From the IMG/VR virus record IMGVR_UViG_3300032524_000110, positions 1 through 26,995 of that record: a stretch of 26,995 bases of DNA; one strand, 5' to 3'. The stretch comes from a virus. The position numbers and the translations under genes are program-made. This document shows positions 1 through 11,986 of the stretch, in pieces. Within the stretch, counting starts at the first letter, position 1; each line of letters begins with the position of its first letter. The notes under the pieces were generated by a model, which did no database searches, was not told the origin of the DNA, and saw only the letters and a program-made list of their open reading frames with translations.

Positions 1-173
1 ACGCAGTGGGCGCCGTTCGCCACCGTGCAGAGCCGATGAGTCTCCTCAGCATGGGCCACAGCCAGAGCGGCCGCCCTCGGCAGCAGCGCATCGCGGACCC
101 AGGGTCGTTCGTGCAGCGGGGTCACGACGCCGCTCCGGGCAGCAGCCAGCAAGGTGTCGTCGCGGTCGGTCAT
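1..173 (-). CDS. Hypothetical protein, 3' end beyond window
   Basis: The gene starts at an ATG at 173 and stays open to the left edge, giving 57 residues and no stop. The start overlaps the TGA of the upstream gene in an ATGA junction, typical of translational coupling in this minus-strand run. The visible part begins MTDRDDTLLAAARSG and is mostly helical, with many Ala, Leu and charged residues and two cysteines near the edge. I recognise no family. The tight overlap and consistent frame support a real gene, but it is too short here for a function. Confidence 0.55.
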   Translation of the reverse strand, partial: MTDRDDTLLAAARSGVVTPLHERPWVRDALLPRAAALAVAHAEETHRLCTVANGAHC

Positions 174-379
174 CGGGTCGGTTCCTCATCAGGGTGGTGG
201 TTGTGGCAGGGCAGGCGGTCGCCCACGGCGGGGAAGGGGTCGCCCCCGCCCCGAAAGACGTTGCGGTAGACGCAGCCGCAGGACAGGTGCAGGAGCGCGC
301 GGCGCATCCCCGGCGGGCACAGGCCGACAACTTCGAGGTGGAGGAGGTAGGCAGCTTCTGCTGCGGGATACGGGGTCAT
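170..379 (-). CDS. Small Cys/His-rich hypothetical protein (69 aa)
   Basis: An ATG at 379 overlaps the stop of the upstream methyltransferase gene (ATGA) and the TGA overlaps the start of the next gene, so it sits in a coupled chain. A GTG at 388 is an alternative start but is less well placed. The 69-residue product has an N-terminal helix and two possible metal-ligand pairs, SCGC near residue 39 and PCHNHH near residue 60, compatible with a small zinc-binding protein. No family was recognised. Confidence 0.6.
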   Translation of the reverse strand: MTPYPAAEAAYLLHLEVVGLCPPGMRRALLHLSCGCVYRNVFRGGGDPFPAVGDRLPCHNHHPDEEPTR

Positions 380-969
380 CGCTGCCACCGCCGGAGGTCT
401 TCCTCCAGAGCGGCAGCATCGTGCCAGCGGAACTTCGTCACGTCGTAGCCCAGACCATCAGCAGCCTGGATGTGGACGACCCGACGACGGAAGTGGGCCG
501 ACGCCTCGATGAAGCGCCTGCCCTCGTGCTTGTACGTCTTGAGCGACCAGCGGGGCCGGACGAAGGTGTTGAACACCAGCTTCCCGCCCGGCTTCAGAAT
601 CGCCCTGAGCCAGCCGAGCATGAAGACGTGCCAGTCCAGGTACGCAGCCGCCTGTCGGCACACGATCAGGTCGTACCGCCCGTGGCAGCCGGGCTGGTCG
701 CCCTTGAACACCTCCCCTAGCTGCGTGGCATCCCCCTTGAACTGGGTGATGCGGTCGTCGGGGCAGCGAGGGTTGAGGTCGAGCAGGTGGATGGTCGAAG
801 GATCTGCACCACGTCGCAGGCACTCCAGCGAGACGGCTCCTGTGCCGCCAGCGAGGTCGAGCACCATCTGACCGGGCATGTACCCGGCGTGGTCCAGCAG
901 AACACCCGGCTGGGTCAGCCAACGGGCGTACAGGGCGTCGTACTGGTCTGTGGTGCAGCTCAGGTCCAT
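376..969 (-). CDS. Class I SAM-dependent methyltransferase
   Basis: The 197-residue product has a Rossmann-type motif I, VLDLAGGTGAVS at about residues 36-47, followed by an acidic strand end (LLDLNP) and a motif IV-like YDLIVCRQAA. A later LKPGGKLVFNTF matches the post-motif strand common in class I methyltransferases. The substrate cannot be told: there is no DPPY or SPPY motif, so it is unlikely to be an exocyclic-amine DNA methyltransferase. It is probably a small-molecule, RNA or protein methylase. I chose the ATG at 969 because it overlaps the upstream TGA (TGATG); an earlier start at 990 would overlap the upstream gene further. Confidence 0.8.
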   Translation of the reverse strand: MDLSCTTDQYDALYARWLTQPGVLLDHAGYMPGQMVLDLAGGTGAVSLECLRRGADPSTIHLLDLNPRCPDDRITQFKGDATQLGEVFKGDQPGCHGRYDLIVCRQAAAYLDWHVFMLGWLRAILKPGGKLVFNTFVRPRWSLKTYKHEGRRFIEASAHFRRRVVHIQAADGLGYDVTKFRWHDAAALEEDLRRWQR

Positions 970-1445
970 CAGTCGCCCTTTGCAGCCCACTCGGGGCAGT
1001 CAGAGGAAGCCCGGAGCCTGCCCTCTGGAGCGGCGTTCCCCAGCCACTTACGGGCGGCCATCCATCGCTTGTCCGACCGGCTGAAGGGCTCGCAGAAGTG
1101 GTCAGGGTCTTTGAACTGAGGCTTGCCCGGTGTGGCGTACTTGCACGTCCGGCAATCCTGGTAGAGGGGGGTAGCCTCGTGGCTACCCTGAGCACGCTCG
1201 GCGTCATCACACGCCCGTTCCGTGAACGTGATCGTATCCACCCCGACGTAGAGGGTGTTCGGGCTCGGGGGGTGCTCTAGGAAGTAAGTGATGGCGTCAT
1301 CAGACACCCCCTGAGATCGCCAGTGCTCCCGAAGGAGATCCCGATCAAGGGTTGTGCCGAGTCTGCCCAGCCCGCCCGAAACGATCTGGACCCCGCTCCA
1401 TGCGGCGTCGTCGTGGGGCGATGGGCTGGGGGACGCGGTGAACAT
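969..1445 (-). CDS. Hypothetical cysteine-containing protein
   Basis: The 158-residue product is not recognised. The first 25 residues are low complexity (MFTASPSPSPHDD). The C-terminal half has a cysteine cluster (DCRTCKY near residue 97, HFCEP near 117 and DCPEW near 149), suggesting a metal-binding or redox site. It follows the membrane-protein gene by two bases and overlaps the methyltransferase start by one base, so all three are probably co-transcribed. Confidence 0.65.
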   Translation of the reverse strand: MFTASPSPSPHDDAAWSGVQIVSGGLGRLGTTLDRDLLREHWRSQGVSDDAITYFLEHPPSPNTLYVGVDTITFTERACDDAERAQGSHEATPLYQDCRTCKYATPGKPQFKDPDHFCEPFSRSDKRWMAARKWLGNAAPEGRLRASSDCPEWAAKGD

Positions 1446-1762: not shown

Positions 1763-1847
1763 CGGGACTCCTAGCCCCACAACTACTCGCGGGGTGGTCA
1801 GTCTGAGCCTTCAATCCAGCGGGTAGGGTGAGCGACTGGAGGCTCGT
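1763..1847. promoter_or_regulatory. Divergent intergenic control region
   Basis: These 85 bases separate two divergent genes. On the plus strand, 1820-1836 reads CGGGTAGGGTGAGCGAC, which matches 16 of 17 bases of an element upstream of the DnaQ-like gene (15884-15900, minus strand). It ends 11 bases before the ATG at 1848 and is followed by a GGAGG ribosome-binding site. I infer a phage promoter or operator element. No convincing sigma-70 -35/-10 pair is seen. Confidence 0.45.
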
Positions 1848-2789
1848 ATGGCTCATCTTCAGGTGATCAAGGGTGGCGAAGTCATGGGCATGGGCCTGGC
1901 GGACTACGTCTGGCTCACCGACGACGGCTCGCTCAACTTCAAGAAGAAAAGCGTCCTCATCGCACAGGACAAGGCCGGTGACCCCGCCCCGCTGGCGGAA
2001 CGCTGGACGTTCTCGCACTGCCCGAAGTGCTTCGACGGCTGCGACTGCGAAGACGCTGTGACCCGCGTGCTGGTGCCCTGCTTCTACCTGCCTGACCCGA
2101 CCCGTCCGCAGCCGAACTACATCGTGCTGTGCGAGGTGCGAGACGCCGACGACCAGTGTGTCGAGTCGAACTGGCGAGCGAAGCTGCGAGCAGCCATGGA
2201 GGAACGGGGGCCGGGGGCGAACCTCGTCTACTTCGGCTTCGAGCAGGACTACTGCCATGTCGAGGCCGGGAGCAGCGAGGAAGACGGCTTTGAGGCCCGC
2301 CGGTTCACGTCCACGGAGCGGCACATCGGGGCCATGTTCGACTCCGGCCTGCTGTTCCACAGCGCATGGAACTCGCCGGGCTGCGACACCTGGGACTTCA
2401 AGGTCGGCGTCCGGGGCTTCCCGCACGACCTCGACCCCGACCCGCCGAACGCCCTGATCGTGGCCGACCACCTGGTCATTGCCCGCTACCTGATGGAGAA
2501 GGTCTGCGGGAGCCACGGCCTCCTGCCGGAATGGACAGACCTGACCGCCTTCGTATCGACGGATGCTCTGCGGCAGCCGGGTTCGGACTTCGCGGCTGAG
2601 ACAGATCGGCTCGATGAAGCCCTGGCCGGACTCGGGCGGACCCGCCGCGTGCCGCACCCGACCAGAGGGGGGACGATGTGCATCGAGATGTCACAGGATG
2701 CCCCTGCGAACCCCTACAAGCTGGCCATGGAAGTGCTCTGCGCTGCGTGGCCCCTGTCCTTCTTTGAACTCACCATGAAGCCGGAGTAG
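1848..2789 (+). CDS. Degenerate type II glutamine synthetase-like protein
   Basis: The 313-residue product aligns by eye along most of eukaryotic-type glutamine synthetase: ADYVWL (19-23, compare AEYIWI), RPQPNYIVLCEV (86-97), FGFEQDY (129-135, compare FGMEQEY), TWDFKVG (181-187, compare QWEFQIG), ADHLVIARY (206-214, compare GDHLWVARF), VSTDALR (236-242, compare FSTKAMR) and DAPANPY (284-290). Metal-binding Glu residues are kept as E132, D134 and D183. The ammonium-site DGSS loop is replaced by a cysteine cluster (CPKCFDGCDC, 58-67), the catalytic His before the FSTK segment is Leu, and the late GFHET glutamate is absent. It is also about 60 residues short. Ordinary glutamine synthesis is therefore unlikely; it may ligate another amine or be non-catalytic. 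GGAGG lies five bases before the ATG. A deoxynucleoside kinase follows two bases after the stop. Confidence 0.78.
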   Translation: MAHLQVIKGGEVMGMGLADYVWLTDDGSLNFKKKSVLIAQDKAGDPAPLAERWTFSHCPKCFDGCDCEDAVTRVLVPCFYLPDPTRPQPNYIVLCEVRDADDQCVESNWRAKLRAAMEERGPGANLVYFGFEQDYCHVEAGSSEEDGFEARRFTSTERHIGAMFDSGLLFHSAWNSPGCDTWDFKVGVRGFPHDLDPDPPNALIVADHLVIARYLMEKVCGSHGLLPEWTDLTAFVSTDALRQPGSDFAAETDRLDEALAGLGRTRRVPHPTRGGTMCIEMSQDAPANPYKLAMEVLCAAWPLSFFELTMKPE

Positions 2790-2791
2790 CT

Positions 2792-3502
2792 GTGCCTGGA
2801 CCGAAGTGCAAAGTCGTCATCGTCGAAGGCCTGATCGGGTCAGGCAAGACCACGCTGAGTCGGGAGCTGGGCGTGGCCTTGGGGGCAGAGACCCTCACCC
2901 TCTTCGAGCCCGATGAGAAGGGAGCGGGGAATCCGTACCTCGCCGACTACTACTCCGACCCCGCCCGCTGGTCGTTCGTGCTCCAGGTCCACCAGCTCCA
3001 GGCCCGGTACCGGATGCACCTCCAGGCTCAGTGGCACGCCCTTCAGGGCATGGGCCATGCCGTCCTCGACCGGAGCTACTTCGGGGACACCGCGTTCGCC
3101 CGCCTCCAGCTCAAGGGCGGGATGATGAGCGAGCGGGAGTTCGCCACCTACTCCAGCATCTACCAGGCCATGACCGCCGGGGTGCTCCTCCCCTCTGTCT
3201 GCGTCCGCGTGCTGGCGTCGCCGGAGATCTGCGAGCGTCGCGTGGCGAAGCGGATGGAGAAGGAGACGGGCCGGAAGTGCGAACAGGCCATCGACCTCGA
3301 CTACCTGCGAGGACTGGAGACCGAGATCGACCACATGGTCGGGGTTCTTCGAGGCATGGGTGTCGTAGTCATCGACATGGCGTGGGACGAGACTCGTCCA
3401 GATCCAGAGAGTAGAAGGGATGCAGTGGCTTCCCTTGCTTCTCGAATCAACTCTCTGACGATCCCTGACCTGTTTCTGGACATGCACCGCAGAACGATTT
3501 GA
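2792..3502 (+). CDS. Deoxynucleoside kinase family protein
   Basis: The product (236 residues) phosphorylates deoxynucleosides to monophosphates in family terms. Visible are a P-loop GLIGSGKTT (13-21), the FEP segment (38-40) that helps hold the substrate, the DRS motif (93-95), and a lid-like basic stretch with ERRVAKR (148-154). The GTG start has GGAG five bases upstream, inside the end of the glutamine synthetase-like gene, so the two are co-translated. The preferred base cannot be read from the sequence. The last residues (DMHRRTI) coincide with a direct repeat that bounds the adjacent HNH insertion, so the C-terminus may have been rewritten by that insertion. Confidence 0.85.
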   Translation: MPGPKCKVVIVEGLIGSGKTTLSRELGVALGAETLTLFEPDEKGAGNPYLADYYSDPARWSFVLQVHQLQARYRMHLQAQWHALQGMGHAVLDRSYFGDTAFARLQLKGGMMSEREFATYSSIYQAMTAGVLLPSVCVRVLASPEICERRVAKRMEKETGRKCEQAIDLDYLRGLETEIDHMVGVLRGMGVVVIDMAWDETRPDPESRRDAVASLASRINSLTIPDLFLDMHRRTI

Positions 3503-4088
3503 TGGCGGTATCCAGTCGTGGGTTTTGCGCCACCGCTCGACACAGGTGCAGAAACTCCGCGAGGGTGAACTCCTGCTTTGCTGTGTTCACTCCCCAGCAG
3601 CACAACACCACGTTGGCCTTCGTATAGCCCTGATCAGGAAACACCCGATCTAGGGATACCCCATAGGGGTCCCGCTGGCGGCCTGTTGTGCTCATCTCCA
3701 CGCCCGAATAGAAACACTTATGGCCTTGCTTGACCCACAGCATCAGAAGGTGCTTCTGGGTCAGATCGAACTCGTAGCCCTTCTCCTTCGCCCTGTTTTT
3801 CGCTCGATGGAATAGGGCTCGGATGTAGTGCTTCGGGGCTTCTGCCTGCCGTTTTCTCAAGGCATTGAAACAAGGGGAGCAGTAGTTCCCTGTGTACGTC
3901 GGAACACCAGCGAGGCCTGCTGGGCAGGCCCAGCAGGTTCTCTCATCGCGTGGTAGGCGCTGGATACCCAGGAAGTGTGCAATCCGGGTGGCCTTCCCTC
4001 GCGTGATACCAAACTCCTCCATCAACGGTGGGGCTCCGTAGTTGGGGTAGAGCCGGGTGAATGCCGCATGGTACTCGGGATAGCGCAT
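3447..4088 (-). CDS. HNH-type homing endonuclease
   Basis: This 213-residue protein has an N-terminal zinc-binding part (C52, C55, C70, C73) and a C-terminal nuclease-like region with CFYSG (125-129), SLDR (145-148), GYTKANVVL (154-162) and a late N...K (GVNTAK), the pattern of phage free-standing HNH endonucleases. It is antisense to its neighbours, more AT-rich than them, and overlaps the kinase 3' end by 56 bases. An 11-base direct repeat (GACATGCACCG at 3479-3489 and 4130-4140) brackets nearly all of it. In family terms it would cut an empty allele and spread by recombination. The exact catalytic His is not obvious, so activity is uncertain. Confidence 0.8.
   Translation of the reverse strand: MRYPEYHAAFTRLYPNYGAPPLMEEFGITRGKATRIAHFLGIQRLPRDERTCWACPAGLAGVPTYTGNYCSPCFNALRKRQAEAPKHYIRALFHRAKNRAKEKGYEFDLTQKHLLMLWVKQGHKCFYSGVEMSTTGRQRDPYGVSLDRVFPDQGYTKANVVLCCWGVNTAKQEFTLAEFLHLCRAVAQNPRLDTAIKSFCGACPETGQGSSES
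3479..3489 (+). repeat. Direct repeat copy 1 bounding HNH cassette
   Basis: GACATGCACCG, identical to 4130-4140. It lies in the last codons of the deoxynucleoside kinase gene (DMHR). Confidence 0.6.
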
Positions 4089-4594: not shown

Positions 4595-6085
4595 TCAGCC
4601 GAACAGGTCGCTGATCAGGTCCGATTCGGGCTCCCCCTTCGACGGGGCCTTCCGTCCCTGGAGGCGAGCTTCTGCGAGGTCGAGGTAGTCGCCTTGCAGG
4701 TCACAGCCGATGTAGTTGCGCCCCAGCCGGAGAGCTACCGCCCCGGTCGTTGCTGACCCGCTGAAGGGGTCCAGCACGGTGCAGGGCACCACGTCAGCCT
4801 CGCACTCGCAGGTGGCATCCCACCCCGTCGTCTTGAGGGGGTTCGCGTCGAGCTGGTTCTGGTACGCCTGCCCGAGCAGGCGATGAGCGTCATGGGCACG
4901 TCCGATGATGCTGTCCTTGCCCTGCATGTACTGAGAGTCATCCGACCGCCCCGCGTCCACGGGCACCGTTCGTTCGACCCGGCGGACGTAGGGGGCTCTG
5001 CACTCAGAGCAGCAGCCGTGTGCGCTGCTGCCTGCCAGCACCATCGGTTCGACCAGGGCTTCGGGCCAGGTGGCGAAGTGGGCACCCTGATAGGGCTTCG
5101 GGTTGATGGTCCAGACAGTCCGCTTGTTCCGCCCCTTGAGGGCGTCACCGAGCATCGCCCCAGGGGCCGTCGTGAAGCCATCTGTGCGACCACCCCGGTT
5201 GCGTGTGCGAAGCGCCTTGTTCGCTTCATCATCTCCTAGAAGCGGGTTCTGCATGGACGAGGCACTGAAGGGCTCCCGGATGGCGTCCTGATCGTAGAAG
5301 TAGTGGTCGCTCTTCGTCAGCAAGAAGATGTACTCATGTGCCCGTGTCGGCCGGTCCCGCACACTCTCCGGCATACAGTTCGCCTTGGCCCACACGATGT
5401 CCGACCGAAGCCACCAGCCGTCGTCCTGGAGCCCGAAGGCCACTCGCCATGGGATGCCCACCAGATCCTTGGGCTTGAGGCCGGTGACCCGGCGGTTGCC
5501 CTGAATCCCGTCCTTTCGGCCTTCTGTGCTGGACCCCCGCTCGCCCTTGCTACGGGCCTCGCGGACACCGGGATGCCCACCCCAGTTATGTCCCCCGACC
5601 CCGTTGTAACTGTCCCCCAGGTTCAACCACGCGATGCCATCGGGCCGGAGCACTCGACGGATCTCCTCGAAGACCTCGACCATGTGCTCGACGTACAGGG
5701 CCGGGGTCGGCTCCAGACCGAACTGACCGAGCCACGCACCGCACAGCTCGCACCACGACTGCGGAGCCGCTGTGGCGTCCGCCTGCTGGGGGTAGGTCTC
5801 GTTGCTCTGCCACTTCGTCTGCGGCACCTGACCACGGTTCCCACGATGCCCTTGGTAGCCCTCCTCCTGGCCCCACTCATGCTCACATGCTTCGCTACCA
5901 CCCCACACCGAAGGCTCCCCACCGTAGTCTCGAAGCCCCCAATAGGGAGGCGAAGTACAGACCACCTGGACACTCTCGGCCTCCAGGAGCCGCAAGCTCG
6001 CACGGACATCCTGCCCGTACAGCAAGCGAGCCTGTGGTGGATCATCACCGAGGGGGTGAAGGACAACACGGTCGATGAGGCTCAT
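4595..6085 (-). CDS. SPPY-type DNA methyltransferase (beta class)
   Basis: The 496-residue enzyme transfers a methyl group from SAM to an exocyclic amine in DNA. The catalytic motif TSPPYW (44-49) comes before the SAM-binding motif VLDPFSGSATTG (437-448), the beta-class order. The Ser form suggests N4-cytosine methylation, though some N6-adenine enzymes have it. Two cysteine-rich patches are seen: CEHEW at 67 paired with CELCG, and CCSEC in the C-terminal part. It is a paralogue of the next gene upstream and keeps the site where that gene carries an intein (IVWAKANCMPESV) intact. It overlaps that gene by ATGA and ends in LISDLFG, a tail shared with both neighbouring methyltransferases. Confidence 0.9.
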   Translation of the reverse strand: MSLIDRVVLHPLGDDPPQARLLYGQDVRASLRLLEAESVQVVCTSPPYWGLRDYGGEPSVWGGSEACEHEWGQEEGYQGHRGNRGQVPQTKWQSNETYPQQADATAAPQSWCELCGAWLGQFGLEPTPALYVEHMVEVFEEIRRVLRPDGIAWLNLGDSYNGVGGHNWGGHPGVREARSKGERGSSTEGRKDGIQGNRRVTGLKPKDLVGIPWRVAFGLQDDGWWLRSDIVWAKANCMPESVRDRPTRAHEYIFLLTKSDHYFYDQDAIREPFSASSMQNPLLGDDEANKALRTRNRGGRTDGFTTAPGAMLGDALKGRNKRTVWTINPKPYQGAHFATWPEALVEPMVLAGSSAHGCCSECRAPYVRRVERTVPVDAGRSDDSQYMQGKDSIIGRAHDAHRLLGQAYQNQLDANPLKTTGWDATCECEADVVPCTVLDPFSGSATTGAVALRLGRNYIGCDLQGDYLDLAEARLQGRKAPSKGEPESDLISDLFG

Positions 6086-8556
6086 CCGAACAGCTCCCCG
6101 ATGAGGTCCGGCTCATCATCATCCTGCGGAGCCTTCCGGCCTTCCAGACGAGCCATCGCCAGCTCCAGGTAGTCCGGGTTGAGATCCAGACCCGTGTAGT
6201 CCCGACCGAGTCGCATGGCGACCACCCCGGTCGTCCCTGACCCGCTGAAGGTGTCCAGCACGACACAGGGCTCTGGGTCATGCGGGCCGCACTCGCAGGT
6301 CGGCCCCCACCCCGTCGTGATCCGCTTCTTCGGCTCGATGCCCCCCGCCCCCTTGAGCTTCAGCCGGTCGTAGTCGAGGGGGTCGTCACACTTGCGGTCG
6401 CCCGTCAGGTTCTCGCCGGTCCCCTCGTTCTTGATGCTCCCACCCTCCGTCTCCATGAGACGCTTCCATGGGCTCCGGCACATCGGGCAACGACCCCTCT
6501 CGCTGCTGCCCGCCTTGATGAACCGCTCGACCAGGGCAGGGGGCCAGACCGCGAAGTGAGCCCCCTTGTAGCCCGTCGTCGCCACCGCGAAGATGTCGCC
6601 CGGATTCTTGCCGGAGGTGTTGAACAGCCCGCGACCCACCCGCCGGGGACTGCCCGCCAGCGCACCGAGCTGCCCCTCCGTCTTGTCCATCTTCCGGCTG
6701 CCTTCACCGGACTCGAACCACTGCTGGGCCGGGGTGAAGTCACCATCGTCGTCGTAGCTGCCGTACTCCAGAGGGACACGGACGGCTTCGAGGTCGAAGT
6801 AGTACCGGGCCTGCTTGGCGAACAGGAAGACGTGCTCGTACTTGCAGGAGAAGCGGTCGGCCACGCTGCTCGGCATAGCGTTGCTATTGTGGGTCAAAAG
6901 ACCCGATGCCGTGCTGAACAGGTGGGGTTCATCCGCCACCTCGATGTCGTAGAAGATCCGCCCTTTCGCCTTACGGATGGCGAGGACCTCGGCCCTGGCC
7001 TTCTCGTTGTGGTGTCCGCTGCGGCTCCACCGCCACTCGCCTCTGAAGGTCGCCTTCCGACCCCCCTGATAGCTCGCGAACGCGGGCTTGAGCGTGAGAG
7101 TTGCCCCCAAACGAGCAGCCAGAGTTCGGAGATCGCTGGCGAGGTTCCTGTTCCGACAGAAGCCCAAGCGGAAACGGGGGTTCAGCGGGTCATCGTGCCC
7201 GTCGCCATGCAGGTAGCCCTCAACCACGGCCTTGAGGAATGAATCGCTTCGCTCCCAGCACCGCATGGACAGGTGCTTGTCCTGTGCCAACCTTCCGCTG
7301 ATGTAGATGTCGATGATCCCATGCAGGACAGGGCCATACAGGTTGATCGAAGCCGCTTGCCCTGTGGTCGGGTACATCTGGCAAGTGCCGTGGTACTTCG
7401 CAGCGATCCGGCAAAGCCTCTTGTAACGAGCCGTCTCCTTGACGTGGCTGGCGATCTGGATCGCCTTGCCATCGTCACCCTTGCTGCCCTCAGCCAAGTA
7501 CAGGCCACAGAACCAGCCCACATCCTCATCCGGCAACAGGGCTGGCTTCGTCGTGTTGTCGGGGAGTCGGGTGGAGGAGATGACATCCCCTGCAACAAGC
7601 TGACCGGCCTCTACCAGCCCTCGCTGAGTCGGCCATCGGTGCTCTGCCGTACAGGTGACCTTCTCTCCCGACCGGAACTCGATCTCCAACCCCTCTGCCT
7701 GGACCTTCTCCCACCGCACCACTTGAGTCCAGCTTGACCCACCCCACAGCTCCACTGTCGCGGGGTCAAGCCGCACCAGATCCTTCAGCATCGCGGGCAT
7801 CTCGCCCTTCTGCGTGCGAGCGTACAGCCGAGTTCCTGCTCCAAGGCACTTCTGCCAGATGATGTCGTTCCGCAGCCACCAGCCGTCCGCCTGCAAAGCC
7901 AGAGCGACCCGCCAGGGCACCCCCACCAGATCCTTGTCCTTCAGGCCCTCCACGCGAGGCTTCCCGATGATGATGTTGTCGCGGTAGTCCTCGTCGTCCT
8001 GCTGTCGCTGACCCTCCCGACCACCGAGGTTCGTGTAGTCCTTGGCCGCGTGGCTCATGTAGCTGTCGCCGAGGTTCAGCCAGAACGTCCCGGACGGGTG
8101 CAGCACCCGGTTGATCTCCCGCCCGATGAGGACGATGTGCTTCACGAACAGGTCGGGCGACGGCTCCAGCCCCAGACAGCCTCTCCAGCCGTCGCACTTC
8201 AGACAGAACGCGCTGGTCCGGGGAGTGAACCGGGACCGCTCCAGCGACCGCTGGATGCCCTCTGGGCTGATGGCGTTGCCACCGCTGGCTGCCCCGAGCG
8301 TGCTGCTGGACAGACCGCCTCCCTGGCTGATGCCCGGAAGCTCGTTGCCCCAGTCGTGTTCGCAGTCGGGGTCACCACCCCACACCTGCTGTTCGACCCC
8401 GTAGTCCCGCAGGGACCAGTAGGGGGGCGAGGTGCAGCAGACGTTGATGCTGTCGTCGGGCAGCAGCCGGAGAGCGTCGAGGACGTTCAAGCCGTAGTAG
8501 AGGTTGGCCTTGGGCGGGTCGTCCCCCAGGGCTCCTAGGACGATGGTCGGCTTCAT
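6082..8556 (-). CDS. SPPY-type DNA methyltransferase with LAGLIDADG intein
   Basis: The precursor has 824 residues. The exteins together make 503 residues, close to the 496 of the paralogue downstream. TSPPYW lies at 42-47 and VLDTFSGSGTTG at 766-777, a beta-class N4C/N6A DNA methyltransferase. Cysteine pairs FCLKC and RCPMC match those of the paralogue. An intein spans residues 237-557; removing it joins IIWQK to SNAMPSSV, which aligns with AKANCMPESV in the paralogue. The protein overlaps both neighbours by four bases (ATGA), so the methyltransferases are translationally coupled. It ends in LIGELFG. No restriction enzyme is seen nearby, so protection of phage DNA is the likely role. Confidence 0.92.
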   Translation of the reverse strand: MKPTIVLGALGDDPPKANLYYGLNVLDALRLLPDDSINVCCTSPPYWSLRDYGVEQQVWGGDPDCEHDWGNELPGISQGGGLSSSTLGAASGGNAISPEGIQRSLERSRFTPRTSAFCLKCDGWRGCLGLEPSPDLFVKHIVLIGREINRVLHPSGTFWLNLGDSYMSHAAKDYTNLGGREGQRQQDDEDYRDNIIIGKPRVEGLKDKDLVGVPWRVALALQADGWWLRNDIIWQKCLGAGTRLYARTQKGEMPAMLKDLVRLDPATVELWGGSSWTQVVRWEKVQAEGLEIEFRSGEKVTCTAEHRWPTQRGLVEAGQLVAGDVISSTRLPDNTTKPALLPDEDVGWFCGLYLAEGSKGDDGKAIQIASHVKETARYKRLCRIAAKYHGTCQMYPTTGQAASINLYGPVLHGIIDIYISGRLAQDKHLSMRCWERSDSFLKAVVEGYLHGDGHDDPLNPRFRLGFCRNRNLASDLRTLAARLGATLTLKPAFASYQGGRKATFRGEWRWSRSGHHNEKARAEVLAIRKAKGRIFYDIEVADEPHLFSTASGLLTHNSNAMPSSVADRFSCKYEHVFLFAKQARYYFDLEAVRVPLEYGSYDDDGDFTPAQQWFESGEGSRKMDKTEGQLGALAGSPRRVGRGLFNTSGKNPGDIFAVATTGYKGAHFAVWPPALVERFIKAGSSERGRCPMCRSPWKRLMETEGGSIKNEGTGENLTGDRKCDDPLDYDRLKLKGAGGIEPKKRITTGWGPTCECGPHDPEPCVVLDTFSGSGTTGVVAMRLGRDYTGLDLNPDYLELAMARLEGRKAPQDDDEPDLIGELFG
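6886..7848 (-). mobile_element. Intein with LAGLIDADG homing endonuclease
   Basis: This 321-residue in-frame element begins at Cys237 (CLGAGTRLY) and ends GLLTHN557 before Ser558. Block B is TCTAEH (301-306), with the expected T-x-x-H. Two LAGLIDADG-type helices are visible: GLYLAEGS (351-358) and VEGYLHGDG (445-453). Block F is YDIEV (536-540) and block G is the terminal HN. All residues for class 1 splicing (C1, block B His, HN, +1 Ser) are present, so splicing should work. It sits in a conserved segment of the catalytic domain, as inteins usually do. Confidence 0.93.
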
Positions 8557-10850: not shown

Positions 10851-11504
10851 TCAGTCCAGGTCGGGAGCCTCGAACCCCTTGTCGGTCTTCTTGACCTCGT
10901 AGCCTGCGTCCTTCGTTGCCTTGACGATCTTCCGTACATCCTCTGCACGGTTCACTGCCTGAGCCGTCTCCAGCTCCCGGAGGGCCTTCCGCTGCTTGGC
11001 GTCGAGCTTCATGTTGCCCCGTGCCGTCATCTCGCCCGTGTCCTTGTCCTGACGACGGGAGGTGAGCCCCAGGGTTCCGGGCTTGAGCAGCTTCACCAGG
11101 CGGGGGTCCATGCTGTGCATGGCGATGTCCCACTGGAGGTCCAGGAACACGCCCGCACAGACGTTCACCGGCTGGCCGTTGAGGATGGTCGGGAGCCGTT
11201 CCTTGACCAGACTGATGCCCGTCCGGGTCTTCAGCTCCAGGTCGAGGAAGTAGAGCGGCATGGGGGCGGCGGGCTGGTTGAACGTCAGCTTGAACTGGAC
11301 GCCGATCCGGTGGTCACCCACAAGGAACCGGGGCCTGTCCAGCGTGCCCCAGCCGTGGATGATGAGCTGGATGTCCTCGGCCTCGACAAGCCGGTGGATG
11401 ACCTCCTGCTCGTCTTCCGACATGGGGACGTACAGCCCTCGGCGATTGCCACCGCCGAAGATGTTCTTGCCGCCGTGCTTGCCGATCTTCTTGTCTTTGC
11501 TCAT
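10851..11504 (-). CDS. Hypothetical protein (217 aa)
   Basis: No family was recognised. The N-terminus is basic and Gly-rich (KHGGKNIFGGGNRRG), suggesting contact with nucleic acid. The middle is beta-rich (QLIIHGWG, VGVQFKLTF, LYFLDLELKTRTG) and the last 60 residues are charged and helical with many Lys and Arg. Three ATGs are clustered at 11525, 11510 and 11504; the last forms ATGA with the upstream stop and has an AGG at proper distance, so it is preferred. Confidence 0.72.
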   Translation of the reverse strand: MSKDKKIGKHGGKNIFGGGNRRGLYVPMSEDEQEVIHRLVEAEDIQLIIHGWGTLDRPRFLVGDHRIGVQFKLTFNQPAAPMPLYFLDLELKTRTGISLVKERLPTILNGQPVNVCAGVFLDLQWDIAMHSMDPRLVKLLKPGTLGLTSRRQDKDTGEMTARGNMKLDAKQRKALRELETAQAVNRAEDVRKIVKATKDAGYEVKKTDKGFEAPDLD

Positions 11505-11986
11505 CGACATACCTGGACGTGACATGCGCGGGGACGGCCTTCCCGCAGGCCAGGGAAGAAGATGACCTGCTTGCCTGAGATCGGTAGTCGTCCATCGACG
11601 ACTTCGCTCTCGTGGAGGTGATAGCTCACGCGGTCGTTTCCCATGACGAAACCGTACCGACGTTGCGTGTCGAACGACTCAACTTCTCCAACGAGCATCA
11701 CCGGAGCTGTCACCCGTTCCACCCGATCTGCCCGTGGGGCCTTACCGCCAGGCTCACCCGCCGGAGCTTCGACATCCACCAGCTCGCCAAGAATCGGCGG
11801 GGGCGGGTCTGCCGTGATGGAGCAGCGGGGGGAGCCGGGACAGCCCGGACACCGAGCAACCTCGACATCGCTGCCGGACTGGAAGGTGGCCAGGTGGAAG
11901 AAGACCTCGAAGCCCGAGTCATCCCGCAAGAAGCCGTACAGCTTCTCGGGGATGTACTTGAGCACCCGCATCCTGAATTGGGGCAC
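11501..11986 (-). CDS. Protein with two cold-shock-like domains
   Basis: The 161 residues look like two cold-shock-type beta barrels. The first covers about 6-35 (YIPEKLYGFLRDDSG then EVFFHLATF), matching the GFGFI...DVFVH pattern. The second covers about 95-158 (GEVESFDTQRRYGFVMGND, then VSYHLHESEV). Between them lies a proline-rich linker with a cysteine cluster (CPGCPGSPRCS). Cold-shock domains bind single-stranded nucleic acids; a phage version could act as an RNA chaperone or an ssDNA-binding accessory. The GTG start has GGAG four bases upstream. Confidence 0.68.
   Translation of the reverse strand: MPQFRMRVLKYIPEKLYGFLRDDSGFEVFFHLATFQSGSDVEVARCPGCPGSPRCSITADPPPPILGELVDVEAPAGEPGGKAPRADRVERVTAPVMLVGEVESFDTQRRYGFVMGNDRVSYHLHESEVVDGRLPISGKQVIFFPGLREGRPRACHVQVCR

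Follow-up and report, generated by a model that had tools for sequence, protein, structure and literature searches.

A probable type II glutamine synthetase-derived pseudoenzyme family, mostly encoded alongside deoxynucleoside kinases, in a lineage of large phages

The locus and its gene family

The window analysed here, 26,995 bases long, comprises an entire IMG/VR virus record and represents a linear piece of a larger phage. Its genes include those for DNA polymerase, primase, thymidine kinase, methyltransferases, and a deoxynucleoside kinase (dNK). Between about 10.8 and 22 kb, the window genes are 62–97% identical to those of a 141,696-base contig (L083), indicating that the window is a piece of a large phage. 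The contig of this close relative stops short of the locus described below. A marker protein encoded at 10851–11525 (minus strand) points to a group of contigs of up to 485 kb, of which L083 is one.

The open reading frame (ORF) at 1848–2789 on the plus strand starts with the ATG at 1848, encodes 313 residues, and has a stop codon that ends at 2789. Purine-rich sites like the GGAGG upstream of it also precede the genes of most other family members. The features of the locus are as follows.

1838–1842, plus strand: Shine–Dalgarno-like GGAGG, 5 nt upstream of the ATG at 1848
1848–2789, plus strand: pseudoenzyme gene derived from type II glutamine synthetase (GSII), on the basis of the ORF, GSII homology, the glutamine synthetase (GS) fold, and six further distinct members
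2019–2048, plus strand: cysteine cluster C58-x2-C61-x3-C65-x-C67 (CPKCFDGCDC), which occupies what was the DGSS ammonium loop and lacks conservation across the family
2235–2252, plus strand: GFEQDY, residues 130–135, the former GxEQEY metal motif (Gly and Gln in 7/7 members; the two acids vary)
2253–2321, plus strand: residues 136–158, a shortened stretch corresponding to the GS PxGxP...PQGxYYCG inter-ring loop, by length comparison
2409–2465, plus strand: family-defining loop, residues 188–206 (xRxxPxxxDxxPPxA), with R189 and P200 invariant
2529–2573, plus strand: former DWNGxGxHxNFSTxxMR segment (EWTDLTAFVSTDALR, residues 228–242), with Asn and His lost, and Ser237 and Arg242 in 6/7 members
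2574–2711, plus strand: residues 243–288, in which the GS helix and the loop for glutamate and ammonia (human R299 to E305) have been deleted or can no longer be recognised, by hhalign, alignment, and length comparison
2792–3502, plus strand: dNK gene (PF01712, 2.9e-30), 236 residues, with the P-loop GLIGSGKT and a DRS motif

Two minus-strand ORFs lie further downstream. The one at 3447–4088 overlaps the end of the dNK gene and contains a CxxC-rich stretch; a 59% identical relative occupies the same place in L063, and the product is possibly endonuclease-like. The one at 6082–8556 encodes an 824-residue DNA methylase with an insert of ~320 residues (CLGAGTRLYA...GLLTHN, then S) that resembles an intein and is absent from the 496-residue neighbour (4595–6085); the relative in L062 has 510 residues.

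The pseudoenzyme family has seven distinct members, namely the window protein, L062 (65% identical to it), L072 (64%), L065 (36%), L063 (35–36%), L120 (33%), and L121 (30%). The relatives were reached through the neighbouring dNK, by profile, and through the records that bear the lineage marker. When the window protein was used on its own, direct scans of viral and genome contigs yielded no relatives. Two genome-contig scans likewise produced no cellular relative, searching DNA for the W-x-F-K-V-G...PP motif gave already known contigs only, and a search with the seven-member profile recovered no further family member. All seven members come from one lineage of large to huge phages, with contigs of up to 435 kb: L120 lies in a 402 kb record and L121 in a 435 kb record, and the L072 sequence is also present in a second contig. 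A tree that includes 26 GSII sequences places all seven members, on long branches, in a single group (support 100/100).

The pseudoenzyme gene is under purifying selection and is less constrained than the adjacent dNK gene. Between the window and L062, pN is 0.245 and pS is 0.462 for the pseudoenzyme (dN/dS about 0.4), as against 0.093 and 0.495 for the dNK. Among the pseudoenzymes of the window clade pN/pS is 0.36–0.53; for most other member pairs dS is near saturation. These values bear on whether the gene is a decaying GS pseudogene in the course of being lost. The absence of many active-site residues and an evolution faster than that of the neighbour gene would fit decay, but the frames are full-length in seven divergent genomes, pN/pS stays within the range above, 33 columns are invariant, and an insertion has a constant length. 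The conserved open frames thus largely refute decay, which we consider extremely improbable.

Descent from type II glutamine synthetase and loss of the active site

The ORF encodes a true GSII homologue, with homology far beyond chance, as proposed in the initial annotation. A phmmer search of the PDB with the single sequence returns glutamine synthetases only (best GSII, 8.2e-7), and a profile of five family members matches yeast GS (1.5e-25) and Streptomyces GlnII (4.4e-23). Alignment of the family with GS by hhalign gives E-values of 2.7e-42 (global) and 3.9e-33 (local). The NCBIfam GlnII model matches all five members tested (best 1.8e-19), with the window protein scoring 46.5 bits, below the curated cut-off of 500 bits. 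Every sequence match is to class II GS, and none points to descent from class I. No Pfam amidoligase or GS model, which distant members can escape, matches the window protein at E-values up to 1; Pfam and PADLOC give no match, and PHROGs gives matches at chance level only.

Predicted structures resemble GS as well. The AlphaFold model of the window protein, built from five family rows only, has a pTM of 0.77 and a pLDDT of 72; its best Foldseek match is GSII (1.1e-15), and VIA-align superimposes 264 residues on GSII with Z 22.9 and an rmsd of 3.3. The model of the divergent member L063, built from seven family rows, has a pTM of 0.81 and matches GSII in Foldseek at 1.5e-17 and in VIA-align with Z 24.6 and an rmsd of 2.9 over 257 residues. 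Because both AlphaFold alignments lack any GS sequence, the fold match is independent of any GS alignment. A fold search of viral models returned two significant matches without names and a weak amidoligase row.

The catalytic set of GS is absent from the family. We compared 15 catalytic columns, each invariant in 26 reference GS sequences, and none of them is kept in all seven members. The columns, in human numbering, include the DGSS Asp, both GxEQEY Glu, the NAE Glu, the QWE Glu, Asn248, His253, Arg299, Glu305, Arg319, Arg324, Glu338, and Arg340. No metal ligand (the two GxEQEY Glu, NAE, QWE, HET, and His) is present in all seven members, and neither metal site is complete in any member. 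The first GxEQEY Glu column reads E, E, E, C, R, I, Q across the family, and the His253 column T, T, S, S, S, M, A. The glutamate-binding residues R299, H253, and R340 (PMC5485471) and the E305 loop are lost or deleted; in GS, R299 and E305 belong to a loop that serves as the gate for glutamate and ammonia (PMC12236511). Other parts of the active-site region persist. The structural Gln between the two GxEQEY Glu is present in all seven members, and six members retain Ser237 and Arg242, which align with GS Ser257 and Arg262. The two GS positions are putative ATP contacts.

The 15 catalytic columns are kept in 0.93 of seven members on average, versus 2.53 for 58 other GS-invariant columns (permutation p = 0.019), a moderate result; an earlier five-member test of catalytic versus other invariant columns was weak (Fisher p = 0.065). 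The claim of active-site loss rests on the direct residue counts. Pseudoenzyme status is well supported by these counts, and, judging from the residues present, glutamine synthesis by the window protein is almost certainly impossible.

The initial annotation had described a loss of ammonia chemistry from the window sequence alone, and the column alignment supports a loss of both the ammonia and the glutamate chemistry across the whole family. That the window copy alone is mutated was rejected, since its direct homologues lack the active site too (7/7). In detail, the glutamate of GFHET was said to be missing, and the HET glutamate does fall in the deleted segment; a look-alike AET at residues 249–251 of the window protein is not conserved. 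The catalytic His had been read as Leu; the aligned residue is Thr in the window and Thr, Ser, Met, or Ala across the family, in an uncertain register with no His present. Three remaining metal-site acids had also been noted. E132, D134, and D183 are indeed acids in the window protein, L062, and L072, but they are not kept in L065, L063, L120, and L121, where the GxEQEY glutamates are C/P, R/G, I/G, and Q/P and the QWE glutamate is D, S, S, and F, respectively. The cysteine cluster had been correctly placed at the DGSS loop; it is restricted to the window protein and L062, which retains three of the cysteines, and so does not define the family. In the remaining five members, this loop contains no cysteine. 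A conserved zinc site at the cluster was accordingly rejected (absent in 5/7).

Remodelled segments, neighbouring genes, and possible roles

The family also departs from GS in the lengths of several segments. The segment after GxEQEY has 15–23 residues, versus a GS median of 42, and the segment before DWNGxGxH, a second inter-ring contact segment, has 23–26, versus 34 in GS. The stretch from Arg262 to DPY has 42–72 residues, versus a GS median of 81. By contrast, the loop after QWExQxG has exactly 19 residues in all seven members, versus 8–10 in GS. This loop (residues 188–206) is 11 residues longer than the GS median and lies beside the former metal site. Trp145–Tyr157 (plant numbering) is the stretch listed for the inter-ring contacts of the GS decamer (PMC3975887). 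We place it on the PQGxYY loop, within the segment after GxEQEY. As the inter-ring segments are lost, assembly into a GS decamer is unlikely.

This loss bears on a takeover of host nitrogen metabolism, in which the protein would mix into or cap host GS rings or titrate a GS regulator. Descent from GSII, the intact GSII of related huge phages (a sign that nitrogen metabolism matters to the group), and fast evolution, as suits a host-facing protein, are in line with such a role. However, both the PQGxYY inter-ring loop and the stretch preceding DWNGxGxH have become shorter (interface, PMC3975887), bacteria do not commonly have GSII, and such a role does not account for the pairing with dNK. A regulator of host nitrogen metabolism, one of two roles put forward in the initial annotation, is weakened, as far as it would act by joining host GS, by deletion of the segments that hold the two decamer rings together, and we judge the takeover quite unlikely.

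The other proposed role was a nucleotide-linked ligase, in which a new active site would link an amine with either a carboxylate or a nucleotide, as might occur when phage nucleotides or DNA are modified. Nucleotide enzymes are encoded nearby, DNA methylases are close by, the conserved new loop with R189 adjoins the old metal site, and E132, D134, and D183 are retained in the window clade. Nevertheless, no member has three ligands at either metal site, and the GxEQEY acids are gone in four of seven. In addition, the family has few invariant polar residues of its own (R114, D165, and R189) and no invariant His or Lys, so that a new catalytic site common to all members is improbable. A gene for thymidylate synthase-type hypermodification (PF00303) was not found in related records, many of which are fragments. 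With neither Mg site holding three ligands and no new conserved catalytic set visible, a re-purposed ligase is disfavoured, and we regard it as unlikely.

The dNK gene starts two bases past the pseudoenzyme stop codon in the window and lies downstream of the pseudoenzyme gene in six of the seven genomes, directly so in the window, L062, L063, L065, and L120; the two genes overlap shortly in the latter four. In L072, an HNH endonuclease gene (PF14279; 6975–7853, plus strand) sits exactly between them. The 435 kb record of L121 contains no dNK gene; there, the end of a nucleoside 2-deoxyribosyltransferase-like gene (PF15891; 311–1501, plus strand) overlaps the start of the pseudoenzyme gene. The pairing with dNK and the link to nucleotide metabolism, both noted at first for the window, thus recur across the family. 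Upstream of the L120 pseudoenzyme gene and divergent from it, a single ORF (125–1399, minus strand) matches both cytidylyltransferase-like (PF01467) and dephospho-CoA kinase (PF01121) models. No separate active GS was found in records that carry the pseudoenzyme gene; related large phages encode intact GSII at other genome positions. Relatives of the dNK in phages beyond the lineage (L064 and L066–L069) occur without the pseudoenzyme and without other window genes, indicating that the pseudoenzyme is dispensable for kinase activity in general.

The conserved gene order also bears on an anti-defence or other host-interaction protein built on a GS scaffold and placed beside dNK by historical accident. 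Rapid divergence and the lack of a good match to any Pfam, PADLOC, or PHROGs family would suit such a protein, although PADLOC covers defences rather than counter-defences, so that its lack of a match says little. The order with dNK is nevertheless kept in six divergent genomes, even with the HNH insertion, and this reading is very doubtful.

Purifying selection, together with the co-encoding of dNK in most members, leads us to propose that the GSII-derived pseudoenzyme may take part in deoxynucleoside salvage by the phage as a non-catalytic partner or sensor, to which we give a probability of roughly 0.45. A GSII copy would have entered an ancestor of the phage lineage. Sequence and models show that both of its Mg sites have since gone, along with the arginines that bind glutamate, the catalytic His and Asn, and the ammonium loop, and that the beta-grasp plus barrel fold is retained. 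The protein could then bind dNK, or a nucleotide or metabolite that regulates dNK, and act as a non-catalytic subunit or sensor. The best candidate for the interacting surface would be formed by the residues 188–206 loop beside the dead active site, together with Ser237 and Arg242. In a more specific version, which we consider rather unlikely, the GS fold would have become a nucleotide- or glutamine-sensing regulatory subunit of phage dNK, through which the nitrogen status of the infected cell would be linked to dNTP salvage. Several observations speak against the partner or sensor role. Adjacency to dNK is no proof of contact, the seven genomes represent one lineage with shared gene order and thus few independent pairing events, dNK relatives in other phages do without the protein, and the pseudoenzyme evolves faster than dNK (pN 0.25 versus 0.09 between the window and L062).

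Comparison with known systems

To our knowledge, a conserved class II GS pseudoenzyme of large phages would be the first viral case. The literature searched contains no viral GS pseudoenzyme; GS-derived pseudoenzymes are rare, and the nearest precedent found is lengsin, from an animal class I GS. The position of the pseudoenzyme gene beside deoxynucleoside salvage genes offers a testable link between a GS scaffold and nucleotide metabolism in infection. It also carries a warning for annotation. Weak GlnII matches could pass as auxiliary genes for nitrogen assimilation, for a protein whose residues make glutamine synthesis very probably impossible.

The phage family shares the two-domain fold of GSII/GlnII (NF041605; S. 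coelicolor 4bax, yeast 3fky, human 2ojw; Z 22–25) and the structural residues Y20, W22, W53, C95, N108, R110, Q133, D207, R213, and Y290. Unlike GSII, it lacks a full complement of metal, glutamate, ammonium, or catalytic His/Asn residues, its E305 loop and two inter-ring segments are shortened or missing, and it has an 11-residue insertion and a new N-terminal LxxIxGG stretch in a protein of ~310 residues. GS-type amidoligases and gamma-glutamyl ligases (e.g. GmaS, 9qur) have the same superfamily fold. Active GS-type amidoligases depend on the metal sites, which are lost in the phage family.

Intact phage GSII proteins (L122, L123, L125, L126, and L128) are also encoded by large phages, and their records share the lineage marker gene. 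They keep the catalytic residues, are not encoded at the pseudoenzyme locus, and form separate, fully supported groups in the tree. GS genes have been reported in nine moraphages (PMC12619734).

Lengsin is a "pseudo-glutamine synthetase" of the vertebrate lens, a catalytically inactive remnant of GSI (PMC2667176). Both are GS-fold proteins: lengsin is reported to be inactive, with a non-enzymatic role (PMC2667176), and the phage family is probably inactive on the basis of its residues, with such a role proposed. Lengsin is derived from GSI, forms dodecamers, and keeps functionally important regions of GSI (PMC2667176). Unlike lengsin, the viral family described here descends from GSII and no longer possesses the catalytic set.
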